This document shows positions 4,495 through 37,204 of a stretch of DNA of 37,630 bases, piece by piece. A program made the translations under genes and the position numbers. Source of the stretch: a virus; IMG/VR virus record IMGVR_UViG_3300030099_005390, positions 1 to 37,630 of that record; one strand, written 5' to 3'. The notes under the pieces are model-generated. The model was not told the DNA's origin. It made no database searches and worked only from the letters and a program-made list of their open reading frames with translations. Every line of letters begins with the position of its first letter. The stretch's first letter is position 1.

Positions 4495-4541
4495 TATATT
4501 TCAATTTTAATGTGGGGCGCTGCGCGGCGCTGGGGAAAATC

Positions 4542-5936
4542 ATGAATGAGCTAACCCGCTATGTATCAGATAGCTTGAGCGAGCTTACACCTTCATCCGG
4601 GAGTGACCCGGTACTGGCTAGGCTTTTGATTGAGGTTTTAGAACGCAAGGGAGAAGGCTTTAAAACCGTCAGCACTGACGGAAGCTTCTACCTTTTCACA
4701 GGGATTCACTGGGAGCGTGTAACGCACGAGGTTCTCAAAAGCATGGCCTTGGAGCTGGATGGGCTATGGCTACCGGGGGAGAAGCCCAAGCGCCTCATGG
4801 TCAATCTGAAGAAGGCTGAATCCATAGCCAAGACTATGCTCCTGGTTCATGAGATTCGAAAAGAGAAACTCTTCGAGGATGCCCCTGCTGGGGTAGCTGC
4901 TGCTGATGGGTTCTGGACGATTGACGAATTTGGTGCCGAGATGTTTGAGCACTCGCCGGATAACCTTTGCACTTGGTCCTACGATTTTGAGATCAACCCG
5001 CAGGTCAAGCCAGTCAAGTGGCTTCAGTTTCTTGATTCTCTTTGGAGGGATGACGAGGATAAGCAGTCCAAGATTGACGCAGCGCAGGAGTGGCTAGGCG
5101 CTTGCTTGATCGGCAAGGCTACGGATTACAGTCGTGCCCTCTTGTGCCTCGGCTCAGGTGGGAACGGCAAGAGCTTATTTATGAAGTGCGCCGAGCTTCT
5201 CTTCAACATTGAGCAGGTCGCAAGTGCGAGCCCGAAGCGCTGGGATCATGAGTATTATGTCAGCACCCTGATAAATGCCCGTTTGAATCTTTGCGCCGAG
5301 CTGCCGGAATATAAGGCACTGGAAGCCAGCGACATGTTTAAGTCTGTTATTTCTGGTGACAGATTAAGCGCACGGCAGCCCCATTGTCCGGTCTATACTT
5401 TTGTCCCTCGATGCGGCCATTTGTTCAGCGCCAACTCTTTGCCCTCAATCGGGTCGGGTGATTATTCGGATGGGTTCTTTCGGCGCTTCTTGGTCCTCTC
5501 TTTTAACCGCAGTTTTACAAATGATTATGCACTGGAGCGCCGCAGTCAGTCCGACATCATTGAGGAGATAGAGGCCGAGCGTCCCGCGATAGTGCACTGG
5601 GCGCTTGAAGGTGCTTCCAGGTTGCTTCGACGTGGTGAGTATACGCTTCCTCATTCTCATAGTGCGACAATTGTGCAATGGCACGAGGATTCGGACCCGG
5701 TTAAGGACTTCGTAAAAGCGTGCTGCACTGGGGGCGAGAGTCGGCTGGCTGATTTGTATGATGCCTTTAAAGAGTACTGCCTATCTACAGGCAGGAGGCA
5801 CGGGAGCAGCAAGGCGATGGCTAAGAGGTTGCGCCTTCATGGGCACAATTCAAAGCTGAAAACAGCCGGTACGGTGTTTGATATTCAAACCAAGCTCCGC
5901 GCCGACTGGTCAGATTGTAATTCTTCAGGCTTCTAA
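4542..5936 (+). CDS. D5/P4-type helicase (SF3 AAA+), replication protein (464 aa)
   Basis: A replicative helicase of superfamily 3, of the kind that unwinds DNA at a phage origin. In the 464-residue protein, the N-terminal 190 residues correspond to the D5_N type region. The Walker A motif GSGGNGKS lies at about 204-211, a Walker-B-like NLCAELPEY at about 250, a sensor-like FSANSLPS near 305, and the arginine pair FFRRF after it. The C-terminal 90 residues probably form a DNA-binding winged helix. The start chosen is the ATG at 4542 with GGGGAAAA upstream; the in-frame GTG at 4512 gives only a low-complexity extension. The leader box lies inside the gene, as codons 3-5 (ELT). The Prim-Pol it would work with is encoded separately at 8934. 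Confidence 0.88.
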   Translation: MNELTRYVSDSLSELTPSSGSDPVLARLLIEVLERKGEGFKTVSTDGSFYLFTGIHWERVTHEVLKSMALELDGLWLPGEKPKRLMVNLKKAESIAKTMLLVHEIRKEKLFEDAPAGVAAADGFWTIDEFGAEMFEHSPDNLCTWSYDFEINPQVKPVKWLQFLDSLWRDDEDKQSKIDAAQEWLGACLIGKATDYSRALLCLGSGGNGKSLFMKCAELLFNIEQVASASPKRWDHEYYVSTLINARLNLCAELPEYKALEASDMFKSVISGDRLSARQPHCPVYTFVPRCGHLFSANSLPSIGSGDYSDGFFRRFLVLSFNRSFTNDYALERRSQSDIIEEIEAERPAIVHWALEGASRLLRRGEYTLPHSHSATIVQWHEDSDPVKDFVKACCTGGESRLADLYDAFKEYCLSTGRRHGSSKAMAKRLRLHGHNSKLKTAGTVFDIQTKLRADWSDCNSSGF

Positions 5937-6146
5937 TTCATCAAGCCAAGCCTCTGGTGGAATGCCGCAGGCTTTCTTGAACTTCACAGCGAGTTCGAGG
6001 CTTGGCTTATACTTCCCACTCATTACCCTCGATGCGTGCTCTGGCGATATGTCCACCATATAACTAATCTCATTTTGATTCTTGTCGTTCTTCTTCATGA
6101 ACTGGCGGAGTTTCTTCACACCTTTGTTTGGTATCGCTTTCGTCAT
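5925..6146 (-). CDS. XRE/Cro-type helix-turn-helix regulator (73 aa)
   Basis: A 73-residue single-domain DNA-binding protein. Residues 24-58 fit the classical helix-turn-helix: NQNEISYMVDISPEHASRVM, then SGKYKPSLELAVKFKKACG. It has no oligomerisation or peptidase domain, so it resembles Cro or an HigA-type antitoxin rather than a full CI repressor. AAGGAG lies just upstream of the ATG, within the 3' end of the nuclease gene, so it is co-transcribed with that gene. Its 3' end overlaps the helicase by 12 bases. It is the only recognisable transcription regulator in the window and therefore a candidate to bind the dyads at 36123, 7172 or 510, but no direct evidence links them. Confidence 0.8.
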   Translation of the reverse strand: MTKAIPNKGVKKLRQFMKKNDKNQNEISYMVDISPEHASRVMSGKYKPSLELAVKFKKACGIPPEAWLDELEA

Positions 6147-32161: not shown

Positions 32162-32368
32162 TTACACACCTGCCGAATAAAATAAATCTTCGTGGTATTG
32201 CTCTTCTTCGGAAAGACTCTTTGTGCCAGCGGTTTCAGGAAACACTTGTAACTGAGTACCTGCCGGTCTTGGCTTCTCCCATAGCTCTACCTCGATATCA
32301 CCAACTCTTAACCGCTTAAGCCCATGCTTTTTTGCAGCTTCGATTATTTCTTCTAGTTCAGCGTCCAT
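32162..32368 (-). CDS. Small conserved protein between terminase and portal (68 aa)
   Basis: A 68-residue protein beginning MDAELEEIIEAAKKHGLKRLRVGDIEVELWEKP, a helix followed by a beta hairpin. From memory, similar short proteins lie between large terminase and portal in several aquatic phages; no function is known. The start is the ATG at 32368 (GGGAAAACG upstream) inside the terminase gene's 3' end; an in-frame start at 32428 gives a mainly Arg/Lys/Gln extension and is unlikely. It would be translated by coupling to the terminase. Confidence 0.6.
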   Translation of the reverse strand: MDAELEEIIEAAKKHGLKRLRVGDIEVELWEKPRPAGTQLQVFPETAGTKSLSEEEQYHEDLFYSAGV

Positions 32369-33816
32369 TCGTTTTCCCACCAAGCCTCGCCGTCTTTTTT
32401 GTCGATATTGCTCTCTACGCCTTCCCAAATTTTATCTTCTAAAGCAGCATAATACTCAGGAGTTCCTTTCCTTGGAGCAATAGCTTTTTCCCTGTACGTG
32501 TAATGCTTGCTTTCACGCCACGCATATAAGCACGCATCAGACAGGTGATTCTCAAAACGCGAATCTTCTTTTTTCCTGTCCTCGTCCCACTGGAGTAAAT
32601 CCCACTCATCTAATAACTCGCATCCTTCGTAGACCTTAATAAAACCACAATGAAGGTCTGAATTCATAAGTTCAATATAGGACGCCTTGTTTCGCTTTTC
32701 TGCTGCACGCACTGGTAACTCGTAGCGGTAACGAAATTCTTCTACAATAGACTTACCAAGACCCCCCGTGTCGGCGACCATGATAGTAAAATCGTAGTGA
32801 GAATCAAGCTCTTTAATTTTTTCTGCAATCTGCGCCGGTATCATCTTCGTTTCTTTATAGGTATCGACGATGTAAAAATCCGGCAGCTCTGGACAGTAGG
32901 CTCCTACGACAAAAGCTGTTGCGTCTTCGTAACCTAAATCCACACCTAAAATAAAATTAAAGTCATGCTCGTGATGCGGCACTTCGGTGTAGAAGTTTTT
33001 GTCTTTGGTGTACTTGTAAATCAAAGAGTCGTTTGAGCGAATCCACTTGCCACGCCACTCACGCAAATAAACCGGATGGTTTTCGTCCCAATGTTTTTGC
33101 TTCATCCGGCGCTCAAGCCATTGCTCCGCATGGGGAATATGGGGGTTTTCCATAATCGTCCAATGATGATTACTATACCCTTGCGCTGGGTCAGTAGAAG
33201 CACGGAAGAACATACCCGAACAAGCAGCGTTGGGCGTTCCAATCATCGCCATTGTGCCGTTGTGGTCAATTAGCGCCGGTTCCAAAACCTCTTCCACCAG
33301 CTCCTCAAGATGGCGTCCGAAACTTGCGGCTTCGTCAAGAATAACCAAGTGGTAAGCAGAACCCCGCAGCTTATCAATATCAGCTTCATCATTCGCACCC
33401 GTCAGAACAATCTGGCTCTGGTTGGGCAGCGTAGCAATAAGCTCCGAGTTATTAAAGTGCATCCCGATGTGGTACTTGCGGTTAGCTCTTTTAAGCTCCA
33501 TCCACATAAGCCGCTTAGCGCTGTTTCGCGTCAGGGCAATATAGGCCGAAATGCTATCCGGGTTTCGAGACGCCGTTTCGATAAGGTAATAACAAGCCGC
33601 ATAAGTCTTACCAGCACGGCGGGAACACAGGGCAGTCTTAAAAGAGGCGGGGTCATTCATAAAAGCAAGCTGCTGCTCAAACAAATCCTCTTGCCACCGA
33701 TAAGTCCGGTCTTTGGCGGTGCCCTTATCCTCATTTAAGGCTTCAGGGTCGCCAAAACGCTTAATATATTCCCTGACTACCGCTCGGGCGTCATGCTTGG
33801 GCGGTGATTTCCCCAT
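32353..33816 (-). CDS. terL: Terminase large subunit (487 aa)
   Basis: The DNA-packaging motor and headful nuclease. Walker A-type SRRAGKTYA is at 65-73, Walker B HLVILDEAA at 156-164 (DE 161-162) and the C-motif TGANDEADI at 139-147. The RNase-H-like nuclease is seen in GVDLGYEDATAF near 295, VADTGGLGKSIVEEF near 350 and LSDACLYAW near 435, which carries the third Asp. The ATG at 33816 lies inside the previous gene's 3' end with AAAGG upstream, so it is translated by overlap. The type of packaging (headful or cos) is not decided here. Confidence 0.92.
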   Translation of the reverse strand: MGKSPPKHDARAVVREYIKRFGDPEALNEDKGTAKDRTYRWQEDLFEQQLAFMNDPASFKTALCSRRAGKTYAACYYLIETASRNPDSISAYIALTRNSAKRLMWMELKRANRKYHIGMHFNNSELIATLPNQSQIVLTGANDEADIDKLRGSAYHLVILDEAASFGRHLEELVEEVLEPALIDHNGTMAMIGTPNAACSGMFFRASTDPAQGYSNHHWTIMENPHIPHAEQWLERRMKQKHWDENHPVYLREWRGKWIRSNDSLIYKYTKDKNFYTEVPHHEHDFNFILGVDLGYEDATAFVVGAYCPELPDFYIVDTYKETKMIPAQIAEKIKELDSHYDFTIMVADTGGLGKSIVEEFRYRYELPVRAAEKRNKASYIELMNSDLHCGFIKVYEGCELLDEWDLLQWDEDRKKEDSRFENHLSDACLYAWRESKHYTYREKAIAPRKGTPEYYAALEDKIWEGVESNIDKKDGEAWWENEWTLN

Positions 33817-34066: not shown

Positions 34067-34563
34067 TTTCCATCCCTAAATTTATCGATGCCCATCGGTT
34101 CTCTGACCTGTGGGACATAGAAAAGATTATACCTATCTCGCAGAGATTTATACACATAACCCTTATGGCTACAGATAATTGGCTCCCCTTGACGGTGTTC
34201 AAAATACTTCAGCAGCAAATTTGCCAGCCCAAGACGCCGAAAAGCATCTTTTACATAGCAATAGTGGACCAAAAGAGGGCCTGATTCGACTCTTAAGCCG
34301 CACATCCACGCAAAAATCTGATTTGGGTCGTCATCCATCACCGCCATAACGGTAACCGACTTTTCCATAAGATTTCTTATGATTTTGCGATGACTTTTAT
34401 ACAAAATGCCCCGATGCTGGTCTTTGTTTTGGTCGGCGTAGCTTCGCAGCCAAGTGCTATATACCAAGGAAGCATCAGAAGAGCTTGCAAGGCGAACCAA
34501 AACAGGCAGTTTGTCGTTGTCGCGTATGGGATTGTAGGCAAGGGTCGCATGTGGCGTCGTCAT
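34054..34563 (-). CDS. GNAT-like acetyltransferase (169 aa)
   Basis: Probable GNAT-fold acyltransferase. The family motif A is seen as LVHYCYVKDAFRRLGLANLLLKYF (about 105-130), with the R-R-x-G-x-A loop that holds acetyl-CoA, and an N-terminal alpha/beta start (VRLASSSDASLVYSTWLR). The second half (EPIICSHKGYVYKSLRDRYN) is consistent with the fold. The substrate is unknown. It is lodged between the small and large terminase genes, with four-base overlaps, so it is a member of the packaging string. The ATGA overlap fixes the start at 34563. No close characterised relative can be named. Confidence 0.65.
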   Translation of the reverse strand: MTTPHATLAYNPIRDNDKLPVLVRLASSSDASLVYSTWLRSYADQNKDQHRGILYKSHRKIIRNLMEKSVTVMAVMDDDPNQIFAWMCGLRVESGPLLVHYCYVKDAFRRLGLANLLLKYFEHRQGEPIICSHKGYVYKSLRDRYNLFYVPQVREPMGIDKFRDGKWKL

Positions 34564-35006
34564 TTAGATTTCCCCTTTAGTTTCTTGTAGGCAATATCGG
34601 CTAGGCGCTTAAGGTCATCATCAGACATCTGCTCAAGCTGATTTTGCTCCCTAATCCCGTGCTCAAGATTCGCCAGTTGGCAGATGCTTCGAGTCAATTG
34701 GCCGAAGTGCTGAGAATCGGCTTTGTCCATTCCGCCACCCGACACAGTTTGTCGCATCAGCCGTCGAGTTTCAGCATCGATAATGGAATACATATTTTCC
34801 ATCATAGAATGCAGGCTCGGCAAAATACTGACATCGATAAGGTCACGGGCGTCGCGGTTGATTTCCACAAAGGCACCTTCGTCCTCTATGTCGCGGTCGG
34901 CCTGCGCCAGAAGTTCTTCTCTGTCTTGTTTTCCGGCAGCGCCTTTAGATGCGGCTTCGTCGTATCGGACTTGAAGTTTGCCAGCGTTGAATATTTTCCT
35001 GCTCAT
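34560..35006 (-). CDS. Terminase small subunit candidate (148 aa)
   Basis: A 148-residue helical protein upstream of the packaging string, the normal place of the small terminase, which recognises the packaging site. It has a basic N-terminus (MSRKIFNAGKLQVRYDEAAS) and a helical core (LIDVSILPSLHSMMENMYSII, then DAETRRLMRQTV, then QHFGQLTRSICQLANL). No helix-turn-helix is obvious, so the name rests on gene order. The start is the ATG at 35006 with AGGAG upstream; the open frame to 35126 is a non-coding extension. Confidence 0.55.
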   Translation of the reverse strand: MSRKIFNAGKLQVRYDEAASKGAAGKQDREELLAQADRDIEDEGAFVEINRDARDLIDVSILPSLHSMMENMYSIIDAETRRLMRQTVSGGGMDKADSQHFGQLTRSICQLANLEHGIREQNQLEQMSDDDLKRLADIAYKKLKGKSK

Positions 35007-35173
35007 TATGCACTCCTGTGCTTGTCCCTCGAAAGGGCACCAAAAGGTGGCGCGATGCTGGGAGCCGGGAAGTGGAATCGTACGGACCCGGATTGGGGGT
35101 AGTTTGCAGGAACTACATCCCAACACCGCAGTGTAATCCTAAAAGATTTTTGGGGGTCGGCACAAGAGCTATA
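35007..35173. other. Non-coding gap with a UUCG hairpin
   Basis: No gene is seen in these 167 bases. On the - strand CCCT-TTCG-AGGG (35037-35026) is a very stable tetraloop hairpin 20 bases before the small-terminase start. A packaging or processing signal could lie here, but no repeat or long palindrome is found. Confidence 0.4.
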
Positions 35174-35929
35174 TTAGCCGACAGTTCCTGACATAAAGAG
35201 CGTGTAATCTTGGGCCGAGGTAACAACAGTTTTCGAGTTTGCGCCGGTAAACCCAGCGGCAATAATAAGCTCGTAGGCTTGAACGTTTCCTTTAATTTTA
35301 GCCAGCTGCCCCGGCAAAGAAACAATACCACCGGCAGGCACAAACATATTGTCCAAAGAAAAGAACTGAATACCAATGGTCCCGCTGTCATCCGTCTCAT
35401 TTGTTCCGAAAGCAGAGGACGAAATAGTTACACGGTCGGTACCGCTCACAGCGGTCGAAAAATCGCTAATCCTGGCCAGATCGTTGTTGTTGGCGGATTT
35501 AGCGCCGTAGACATTGAGGTAATTGGAGCCTTTGCTGCCGCCGTCAATGTAATCGCCTTTTTTAAAGCCATCAGCTACGGGTGTCGTAATTTGGTTGTTA
35601 CTGGCAAACACGCAGTTTCCAATAGTCGTGCCGCTAAGGTCAGCGATTAATCGGTAGTATTGAATCAACATCTCGCTGTCCGAGCGGTTATGGAGAATAA
35701 AAGTGTTGACTGTGGTCAGGCCCTGAAGGGACAGGTTGTAATAATCGTATGCGTTGTAAAGGGTGCTAGTTGACCCGACTGAGGTATTCGCCTCAAGCCG
35801 ACCATCAACGCGAACAACTTTTTCATCGGTCTGAGTCTGGGTTGCGTTCTTCAAAGACACATGGGGGTCCGAGTGGTCAGATGAGCGGCTGGATAAAGCT
35901 GAGACAATGGTTTTGACGTATTCGGCCAT
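35174..35929 (-). CDS. Unknown virion-type protein, first late gene (251 aa)
   Basis: A 251-residue beta-rich protein beginning MAEYVKTIVSALSSRSSDH. Middle strands (STLYNAYDYYNLSLQGLTTV, TFILHNRSDSEMLIQYYRLI) suggest a jelly-roll or decoration-type fold. The C-terminus is Gly/Ser-rich (DYTLFMSGTVG). Not recognised. The start is the ATG at 35929 with AGGGGAA upstream; the same frame remains open to 36142, but the extension is low-complexity, crosses the control region and is not coding. Being first in the late block it may be made in large amounts. Confidence 0.65.
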   Translation of the reverse strand: MAEYVKTIVSALSSRSSDHSDPHVSLKNATQTQTDEKVVRVDGRLEANTSVGSTSTLYNAYDYYNLSLQGLTTVNTFILHNRSDSEMLIQYYRLIADLSGTTIGNCVFASNNQITTPVADGFKKGDYIDGGSKGSNYLNVYGAKSANNNDLARISDFSTAVSGTDRVTISSSAFGTNETDDSGTIGIQFFSLDNMFVPAGGIVSLPGQLAKIKGNVQAYELIIAAGFTGANSKTVVTSAQDYTLFMSGTVG

Positions 35930-36122
35930 GAGGTTCCCCTTTGGCAAAAGAATATTCTTAGCACAGGAAAAACACAAGGATTCTATTTTTGACGCGATGT
36001 GTCGGAACTGAATTTGGGGGGAGTGACGATGAGGGTATTTAAGCCCAACGGGGGAGGACGATCCGGGGGTAGGGTAGGGTCGCCTTTGGCCCCACATGTG
36101 CGGCGATGTGCGCAAAAAAGCA
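35930..36122. promoter_or_regulatory. Late control region, G-rich, no gene
   Basis: It holds a perfect 12-base palindrome AAGAATATTCTT at 35948-35959 and a G-rich run on the + strand with four G tracts (36050-36054, 36065-36069, 36072-36074, 36077-36079) able to form a G-quadruplex. It lies between the dyad array and the first late gene, so the late promoter should be here or within the array; no strong sigma70 hexamers are seen. Confidence 0.5.
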
Positions 36123-36275
36123 TTTAATGAATGACGGTTCATTTAATCGGTCGGTTTAATGAATGGGGATTCAGTTTATCCCGAGGGGTTTAGTGAATGG
36201 TGATTCAGTGTATGGCGCGGTGTTTAATGAACCCGGATTCAGTTAACGCATCGTTTCATGAATTGGGATTCAGTG
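36123..36275. repeat. Five-copy dyad array (TGAAT-N4-ATTCA)
   Basis: Five near-identical units, TTTAATGAATGGGGATTCAG being the consensus, begin at 36123, 36155, 36189, 36223 and 36254, so 31-34 bases (about three helical turns) apart. Three copies have a perfect dyad TGAAT-N4-ATTCA (N4 is GGGG, GGTG or TGGG); the first and fourth have one mismatch. This spacing puts all sites on one face of the helix. It is a likely regulator-binding array or set of iterons, just upstream of the leftward late block. Confidence 0.8.
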
Positions 36276-36290
36276 AATAGGTCAAAAGAA

Positions 36291-36311
36291 AGCCCCGTTT
36301 GATGCGGGGCT
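36291..36311. terminator. Bidirectional rho-independent terminator
   Basis: AGCCCCG (36291-36297) pairs with CGGGGCT (36305-36311) around TTTGATG. The + strand then reads CTTG followed by T7, and the - strand reads TTCTTTT. It ends the short leftward unit 36636-36321 and shields the dyad array from it. Confidence 0.8.
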
Positions 36312-36320
36312 CTTGTTTTT

Positions 36321-36491
36321 TTATGGGACATCGTGGCGGCATCGGTAGGTGAGATGCCTTGATACATCAACCCAGACCTTTTCCAACACCCTGTGCCCTT
36401 CTAGCAATATGGCCTCACTCCATACCACACCGTGCTTTTTGTCCTTTTCCCCTGTTAGCCGTGCAAGGTCCCCCTTAAATAGTAGATACAT
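36321..36491 (-). CDS. Unknown small early protein (56 aa)
   Basis: A 56-residue protein, MYLLFKGDLARLTGEKD followed by mixed beta-like sequence (GVVWSEAILLEGHRVLEKVW) and a tail RCRHDVP. The pattern of a small SH3-like or PcfK-like barrel is possible but not recognised. The ATG is two bases inside the next gene's 3' end region (stop at 36493), so it is coupled to that gene. It is followed immediately by the terminator. Confidence 0.6.
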   Translation of the reverse strand: MYLLFKGDLARLTGEKDKKHGVVWSEAILLEGHRVLEKVWVDVSRHLTYRCRHDVP

Positions 36492-36492
36492 A

Positions 36493-36636
36493 TCAAACCC
36501 CTTGTGCCGTAATGGCCGCGTTTAGGTCCAATCGCGCGAATGCTTTCTTGATGTGGTAGACGCGGTTGTGGTTGATTCTTTCGTCTACCTTCCACGTTAG
36601 CACTAGGTCCCGTAAGTCGTTTTTGAGTTGGTTCAT
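36493..36636 (-). CDS. Unknown small early protein (47 aa)
   Basis: A 47-residue basic helical protein (MNQLKNDLRDLVLTWKVDER, then HHIKKAF-like helix, ending AAITAQGV). Not recognised. The start at 36636 is preceded by AAGGACATAATCC. Upstream lie a leader box at 36659-36666 and a promoter of the TTGACG-N3-GCATCAT type at 36699, so it belongs to the early class though it sits on the opposite strand from the other early genes at this end. Confidence 0.6.
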   Translation of the reverse strand: MNQLKNDLRDLVLTWKVDERINHNRVYHIKKAFARLDLNAAITAQGV

Positions 36637-36671
36637 TGGATTATGTCCTTTTCTTTGGGTTAGCTTACCTC

Positions 36672-36699
36672 AACTTACCATGCATGATGCCTGCGTCAA
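36672..36699 (-). promoter_or_regulatory. Promoter with GCATCAT half-site
   Basis: On the - strand: TTGACG (36699-36694), 16-base spacer with GCATCAT (36690-36684), then TAAGTT (36677-36672). The leader box starts about seven bases further on, near the expected first transcribed base. The same elements in the same order occur at 37176-37204. Confidence 0.6.
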
Positions 36700-37089
36700 G
36701 CAGATAATGTGAAAAGATGACCAAAGAAAGAACATTCGAGGCGGAAAAGGCCCCTTGAGCATACAATAACCCTTTGATTGTCCATCATATGCTCAAAGGG
36801 TAATAACGTTACTCAAATCATTGCGCCTAACTTCACCCCATTTCAAGCCAAAAAAGCCTCAAGCCATGAAGTTATGAAGCAAATGGTGTAATGTAGAAAG
36901 TTTTTTTTCTTATACTATACAGCCTATAGGCCTAAATCCTATATACCTAATGATATCATATGCTTACGCAGTATCGCTCTTTTTTGTTTGTAGAAATAAT
37001 ATTTAAGGCAATATTTACTCCATCTCCATCATTCTGAGAATAACCTTAATGTTTTTAGGTGCTTAAGTTTTTCAACCTATGGAGATGCT
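36700..37089. other. AT-rich non-coding region with inverted repeats
   Basis: About 390 bases without a gene of recognisable type. It holds two competing inverted repeats at 36755-36800, the short palindromes TAACGTTA (36804-36811), GCCTATAGGC (from 36931) and ATGATATCAT (from about 36950). A nine-pair arm CATCTCCAT (37021-37029) matches ATGGAGATG (37079-37087). Its base composition and palindromes fit an origin or an early control region. Confidence 0.5.
36755..36800. repeat. Two overlapping inverted repeats, alternative hairpins
   Basis: TTGAGCATA (36755-36763) pairs with TATGCTCAA (36788-36796), with CAAT/ATTG (36764-36767, 36777-36780) inside. CCCTTTGA (36770-36777) pairs instead with TCAAAGGG (36793-36800). 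The two arrangements share bases 36793-36796, so only one can form at a time. Confidence 0.65.
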
Positions 37090-37175: not shown

Positions 37176-37204
37176 TTGACGCTTGCATCATAAACTATTA
37201 AGTT
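37176..37204 (+). promoter_or_regulatory. Promoter with GCATCAT half-site
   Basis: TTGACG (37176-37181), 17-base spacer containing GCATCAT (37185-37191), TAAGTT (37199-37204). The leader box starts at 37211, which is the expected transcription start. It drives the gene at 37240. Confidence 0.65.

Follow-up and report, generated by a model that had tools for sequence, protein, structure and literature searches.

Organization of the early/late junction

The stretch of DNA analyzed here (the window) spans 37,630 bases, recorded in IMG/VR as a linear virus sequence, and comes from a phage that is presumably marine, judging from the identifiers of the IMG samples and the types of distant relatives it has. 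A phage collection held no DNA relatives of the window; terminase matches in it were less than 60% identical, the portal had one match (21%), and the capsid had none, which leaves these last two proteins with practically no relatives from cultured phages. Genome scans with TerL and with the portal alignment gave no prophage match from which a host could be read. The early genes lie mostly on the plus strand and encode a D5-type helicase-primase, a primase, a YqaJ exonuclease, an SSB, a VRR-NUC nuclease, and an XRE protein, and the late block (terminase, portal, capsid, tail, and endolysin) occupies the minus strand from about 35.9 kb.

In front of the late block, positions 36128 to 36272 (145 bp) hold five 14-bp dyads, which form the window's one tandem array in non-coding DNA. 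Counting down from the one nearest the late block, these are site 5 at 36128 to 36141 (TGAATGACGGTTCA, which reads TGAACCGTCATTCA on the late strand), site 4 at 36160 to 36173 (TGAATGGGGATTCA), site 3 at 36194 to 36207 (TGAATGGTGATTCA), site 2 at 36228 to 36241 (TGAACCCGGATTCA), and site 1 at 36259 to 36272 (TGAATTGGGATTCA). The spacing of 32, 34, 34, and 31 bp between successive starts, given in an earlier note on this DNA, was reproduced, and TRF reported a tandem unit of 34 bp at the array, in agreement with it. Five TGAAT-N4-ATTCA dyads, in units that are not perfect copies, had been described there; five are indeed present, the pattern being exact in three, and the other two each carry one altered base. 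The looser pattern TGAA-N6-TTCA occurs five times in the whole 37.6-kb window, always in the array; shuffling the 401 bp around it with dinucleotide counts preserved gave a mean of 0.017 and a maximum of 1. Because the array units are related in tandem, which raises the site count, conservation across relatives is the stronger evidence.

The same note had placed all sites on one face of the helix, three turns apart. Along the late strand the sites lie at offsets of 0, 31, 65, 99, and 131, and the resultant of their phases is 0.26 at 10.5 bp per turn, reaching 0.9 only at 10.9 to 11 bp per turn; at 10.5 bp per turn, the end sites of the array are thus on opposite faces. Two other step patterns found in relatives, 31/26/34 and 34/28/34/33/18/30, gave resultants of 0.23 and 0.60 at 10.5 bp per turn and include steps of 18, 26, and 28 bp between array sites. 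Strict three-turn phasing was therefore ruled out at 10.5 bp per turn, and the idea of a common face had to be given up.

Between the array and the late genes lies a C-rich, G-poor element (35987 to 36081, minus strand) of the form GACCCTACCC..CCCC..TTAAATACCCTC..TCACTC..GACRCA, with the core TTAAATACCCTC-N4-TCACTC; its opposite strand is full of G runs. This element was kept in every relative examined, including a clade with 72% TerL identity (L020 to L023) that itself has no TGAA array, and it may be a late promoter, a signal for packaging, or an RNA site of the Rho type. On the other side of the array, a hairpin that resembles a terminator and has T-runs on each strand (36291 to 36318) separates it from a set of small genes (36321 to 36640). 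The location between a terminator and the late block, as first described, is thus correct for the window, but the terminator is not conserved: it is absent from a second group of relatives, in which an early promoter takes its place.

Farther into the late side, inspection turned up a weak sigma70-like sequence, TTGTGT-N17-TATTCT (35949 to 35977, minus strand), that may be a promoter for the late block. The first late gene (35174 to 35929, minus strand, 251 aa) is missing in many close relatives and in many that keep the array. It is 99% identical to its counterpart in relative G004 and 85% identical to that of a distant-clade phage (L023), has a GC3 skew of -0.36 on its coding strand, and looks recently mobile. 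Directly before the next gene, which encodes a small TerS-like protein (34560 to 35021, minus strand) upstream of the terminase large subunit (32353 to 33816, minus strand), lies a conserved three-way-junction RNA element (35015 to 35129, minus strand). It carries compensatory changes, with eight pairs changed on both sides and a covariation score reached by no shuffle, and is built of a 12- to 13-bp closing stem and two inner hairpins followed by two small hairpins. The element recurs in relatives (L007 1000 to 1110, L128 3868 to 3980, L114 482 to 609, and others), did not turn up in a search of more distant relatives, and had no match in Rfam. In relatives that lack the gene at 35174 to 35929, it stands directly behind a sigma70-like late promoter candidate, a position like that of an antiterminator or leader RNA.

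Variation of the array among relatives

Relatives were collected by TerL and portal searches, which yielded 64 loci, and by searches with the TerS-like gene and the element pattern, which yielded further loci. As the earlier note had proposed, the array was looked for in these relatives, and those with a terminase at least 89% identical carried 2 to 7 sites at the same location as in the window. We analyzed 13 array-bearing contigs, which represent few independent lineages. One group (A: the window, L004/L119, L006/L122, and L015) has four or five sites at steps of 31/34/34/32, preceded by the terminator, and another (B: L008, L014, L018, L030, and L110) has four sites at steps of 31/26/34, with a divergent early promoter on one flank and the late side on the other. 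Seven sites are present in L017/L131 and two each in L007, L009, L010, and L016. The distance from the last array site to the C-rich element is 45 to 85 bp in all 13 contigs, so that the place of the array is constant among contigs that differ in their first late gene, terminator, and early neighbor.

In the aligned arrays of two groups of relatives, the TGAA/TTCA cores differed at 0 of 216 and 8 of 320 pairwise comparisons, the inner N4 at 24 of 108 (22%) and 23 of 160 (14%), and the spacers at 32 of 390 (8%) and 79 of 490 (16%). A site profile built from 48 unique contexts is 14 bp long and two-fold symmetric, with conserved outer bases. At position 5 and its partner, the 26 distinct sites include the combinations T-A (7), C-A (7), C-G (4), and T-G (3); since a C..A mismatch turns up as often as a T..A pair, the two half-sites are apparently read separately, and a reading of the dyads as hairpins or RNA was ruled out on the same grounds. 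These alignments show that selection acts on the half-sites while the number and spacing of the sites change, and the independent variation of the half-sites fits a dimeric protein rather than a hairpin. The earlier proposal that selection is on a dimeric binding site is thus well supported, both by core conservation and by the way the half-sites vary.

Some close relatives have no TGAA array. The L012, L013, and L019 contigs (G005, G006, and G010) have a TerL 91 to 94% identical and a TerS-like gene 90 to 91% identical, and carry at the array spot three copies of an 18-bp direct repeat, GTATGGCAACTGCAYTAC, at 20- and 40-bp spacing. Relatives of the kind that the earlier note had named as its counterexample, with the same late block and no array, hence do occur, and the array cannot be a site that a fixed late activator always requires. 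As a different repeat replaces it in these relatives, the array is better described as an exchangeable module, next to a C-rich element that is not exchangeable. The exchange left the core genes uninvolved: between G004, which has two TGAA sites, and G006 and G010, which have none, identity is 99 to 100% for the XRE protein, 91% for the helicase, 96 to 97% for the primase, and 94 to 95% for the TerS-like protein. G004 and G006 also have almost the same helicase C terminus. When all ORFs of array-bearing and array-lacking contigs were compared, no gene family tracked the array, an argument of only moderate weight because the array-bearing lineages are few (13 contigs).

Early operators and the XRE protein

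A second class of dyad, TGAYG-N4-CRTCA, has four exact matches in the window, all at sigma70-like early promoters. One, TGATGCCTGCGTCA (36685 to 36698), covers the promoter of the small leftward genes; another, TGACGCTTGCATCA (37177 to 37190), covers that of the rightward early genes; and a pair, TGACGTTAGCATCA and TGATGTTACCGTCA (7173 to 7203), occupies the divergent promoter between the XRE/VRR-NUC operon and the YqaJ exonuclease operon. Tolerating one mismatch raised the count to 14, against an expectation of 2.9, and the class was also present at early promoters of relatives (including G016, G009, G007, L142, L143, L145, and L146). The phage therefore appears to exert control through 14-bp dyad operators. 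Doubled at the promoter of the XRE operon, this early class resembles an early repression circuit of the Cro/CI kind and is probably the target of an autoregulated XRE protein (HTH_3, 73 aa; 5925 to 6146, minus strand), a candidate early repressor.

Array sites and early operators share their geometry and the outer TGA, and base 4 is A in all array sites and C or T in all early operators; the same patterns had served to find the two classes, and no mixed cluster was seen. This split makes different binders probable, although a single binder with two classes of affinity is possible as well. As the only recognized DNA-binding regulator, the XRE protein is also a candidate for the array, on mixed evidence. 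It did not covary with the array sites, and its near identity in G004 (two sites) and in G006 and G010 (none) argues against a role as strict partner.

Many early genes also have the motif GAGCTAACC a short way ahead of the start codon, at window positions 535, 1305, 1591, 1808, 3787, 7213, 10116, 36664, and 37213 and at many sites in relatives. It occurs inside operons too and is therefore not part of a promoter; a translation or RNA-level element is possible.

Possible functions of the array

Judged from the comparisons above, the array is real and appears to be a fairly ordinary kind of protein-binding control region. Our preferred reading, to which we give a probability of about 0.5, is a cluster of operators or an enhancer that serves early/late control. 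The sites would be 14-bp operators with the half-site TGAAY, in which the outer four bases are read and the inner six are mostly free, and the putative binder would be a dimeric protein of the helix-turn-helix type. Four outer and six inner bases are the geometry of XRE/434-type operators. Bound sites beside the C-rich element would most likely tune the early-to-late transcription switch of the leftward late block, with the array acting as an upstream activator or repressor cluster and as an exchangeable module at the early/late junction. We infer both transcription as the target and the late block as the regulated unit.

The closest known counterparts are the lambdoid/434-type operators (434 repressor, Cro), which likewise are 14-bp dyads with four outer bases per half and six inner ones in a phage control region, and the phage studied here encodes an XRE protein. 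Unlike the three operators around divergent promoters in those systems, the array has five sites in a row at 31 to 34 bp, far from a convincing promoter; moreover, no integrase was seen, and the XRE protein is only a candidate binder. Upstream activator sites of late promoters of the P2 Ogr type are also dyads upstream of a late block, but the array consists of multiple sites, 120 to 300 bp upstream and unphased. A classical activator is disfavored by the distance to the nearest convincing late promoter candidate, which is more than 100 bp (120 to 160 bp), and by the variable distance and phase, including the 45- to 85-bp range to the conserved element. No Ogr-like protein was found among the genes scanned against Pfam and PHROGs. 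The earlier note had offered a late activator or repressor array, or iterons of an origin; the place at the early/late junction and the conserved late-side element fit a control array or an origin, but an indispensable site of a fixed late activator is refuted.

The origin reading, in which an initiator, perhaps the D5-type helicase or a partner, would bind the array as iterons and open the DNA nearby, strikes us as unlikely. Its appeal lies in the direct repeats about 34 bp apart, as in plasmids and P4-like phages, in a tandem array that is the sole non-coding one of the window, close to the early/late divergence, and in the variation of the arrays among relatives, as is often seen for origins. 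The C-terminal end of the helicase is a weak match to Pox_D5, a domain with an origin-binding role in other phages. The cumulative GC-skew minimum is also near the array, at 34.4 kb, but the skew follows the gene strand (the minus-strand island at 6 to 7 kb is negative), so this minimum is confounded by gene orientation. Each array unit is itself a dyad, and no AT-rich stretch adjoins the array: AT content is 0.57 beside it and 0.40 to 0.57 over 36000 to 36800, and a richer stretch (0.62 to 0.71) begins about 600 bp away. The helicase of array-less relatives shares 91% identity with the one from an array-bearing relative, and its C-terminal region is nearly the same in the presence of either repeat. 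The tandem character of the array could alternatively reflect a non-functional duplication remnant, in line with the related spacers and the varying unit number. We consider such an artifact very unlikely, given that the cores are far more constrained than the N4 and the spacers in two groups of relatives. Other viral contigs with at least three such dyads held only near-perfect short tandem repeats in unrelated contexts, and these perfect minisatellites look quite different from the array.

Two further readings put the binder elsewhere. The phage might use sites for a host DNA-binding protein, e.g., an arginine-repressor-like factor, which would explain why no phage gene tracks the array; we regard this as unlikely. 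The E. coli ARG box core is TNTGAATWWWWATTCANW, with half-sites TGAAT/ATTCA and a 4-bp gap (PMC4865122), and the array has equal half-sites and gap, exactly so in three of the five window sites. In contrast to the boxes bound by ArgR/AhrC, however, the array has a GC-rich center, T or C at position 5, and five sites 31 to 34 bp apart in a viral late region. A WWWW center occurs in none of the 26 distinct sites and T at position 5 in 10 of them, whereas the carAB boxes of E. coli score 13 and 11 of 14. The array was accordingly not filed as an ARG box, membership being rejected on the E. coli consensus, and the genome scans returned no prophage or host. A packaging site (pac/cosB-like) bound by the small terminase subunit is about as unlikely. 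The array does lie upstream of the TerS-like gene, beside a strongly conserved element, and the contigs are circularly permuted with scattered ends, as headful packaging would give. Yet the TerS-like protein is about 95% identical in G004 (sites) and G006 (none), and it is the C-rich element, not the array, that is conserved with the terminase. In addition, the TerS role was assigned by position only, and a profile search with this protein gave no family match.

A bolder reading, which we hold only tentatively and think improbable as a whole, is that repeat arrays of differing sequence (TGAA dyads and GTATGGCAACTGC repeats) are swapped in and out at the spot beside the C-rich element. These would be read by a host factor or by unrecognized small phage proteins, so that close relatives could rewire the early/late switch with core genes unchanged. 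The locus offers a natural example of closely related phages that swap repeat arrays beside an unaltered late block, and a control-region map for an uncultivated marine phage lineage with two operator classes, a conserved late-side element, and a structured RNA.

Some minor observations concern other parts of these genomes. In the 72%-TerL clade, L020 (4246 to 4283) and L023 (147 to 186) each carry two copies of a 5-4-5 dyad, TAGAT-N4-ATCTA, spaced by 20 bp, one L020 copy having a changed base; the C-rich element follows about 400 bp downstream. The exonuclease/RecT/primase block is inverted in G009 and G004 relative to window positions 7233 to 9728. Before the helicase start, at about 4505 to 4545 in the window, GGGGCGCTGCGCGGCGCTGGGGAAAAT has stayed nearly the same even in relatives with as little as about 65% identity in the helicase.
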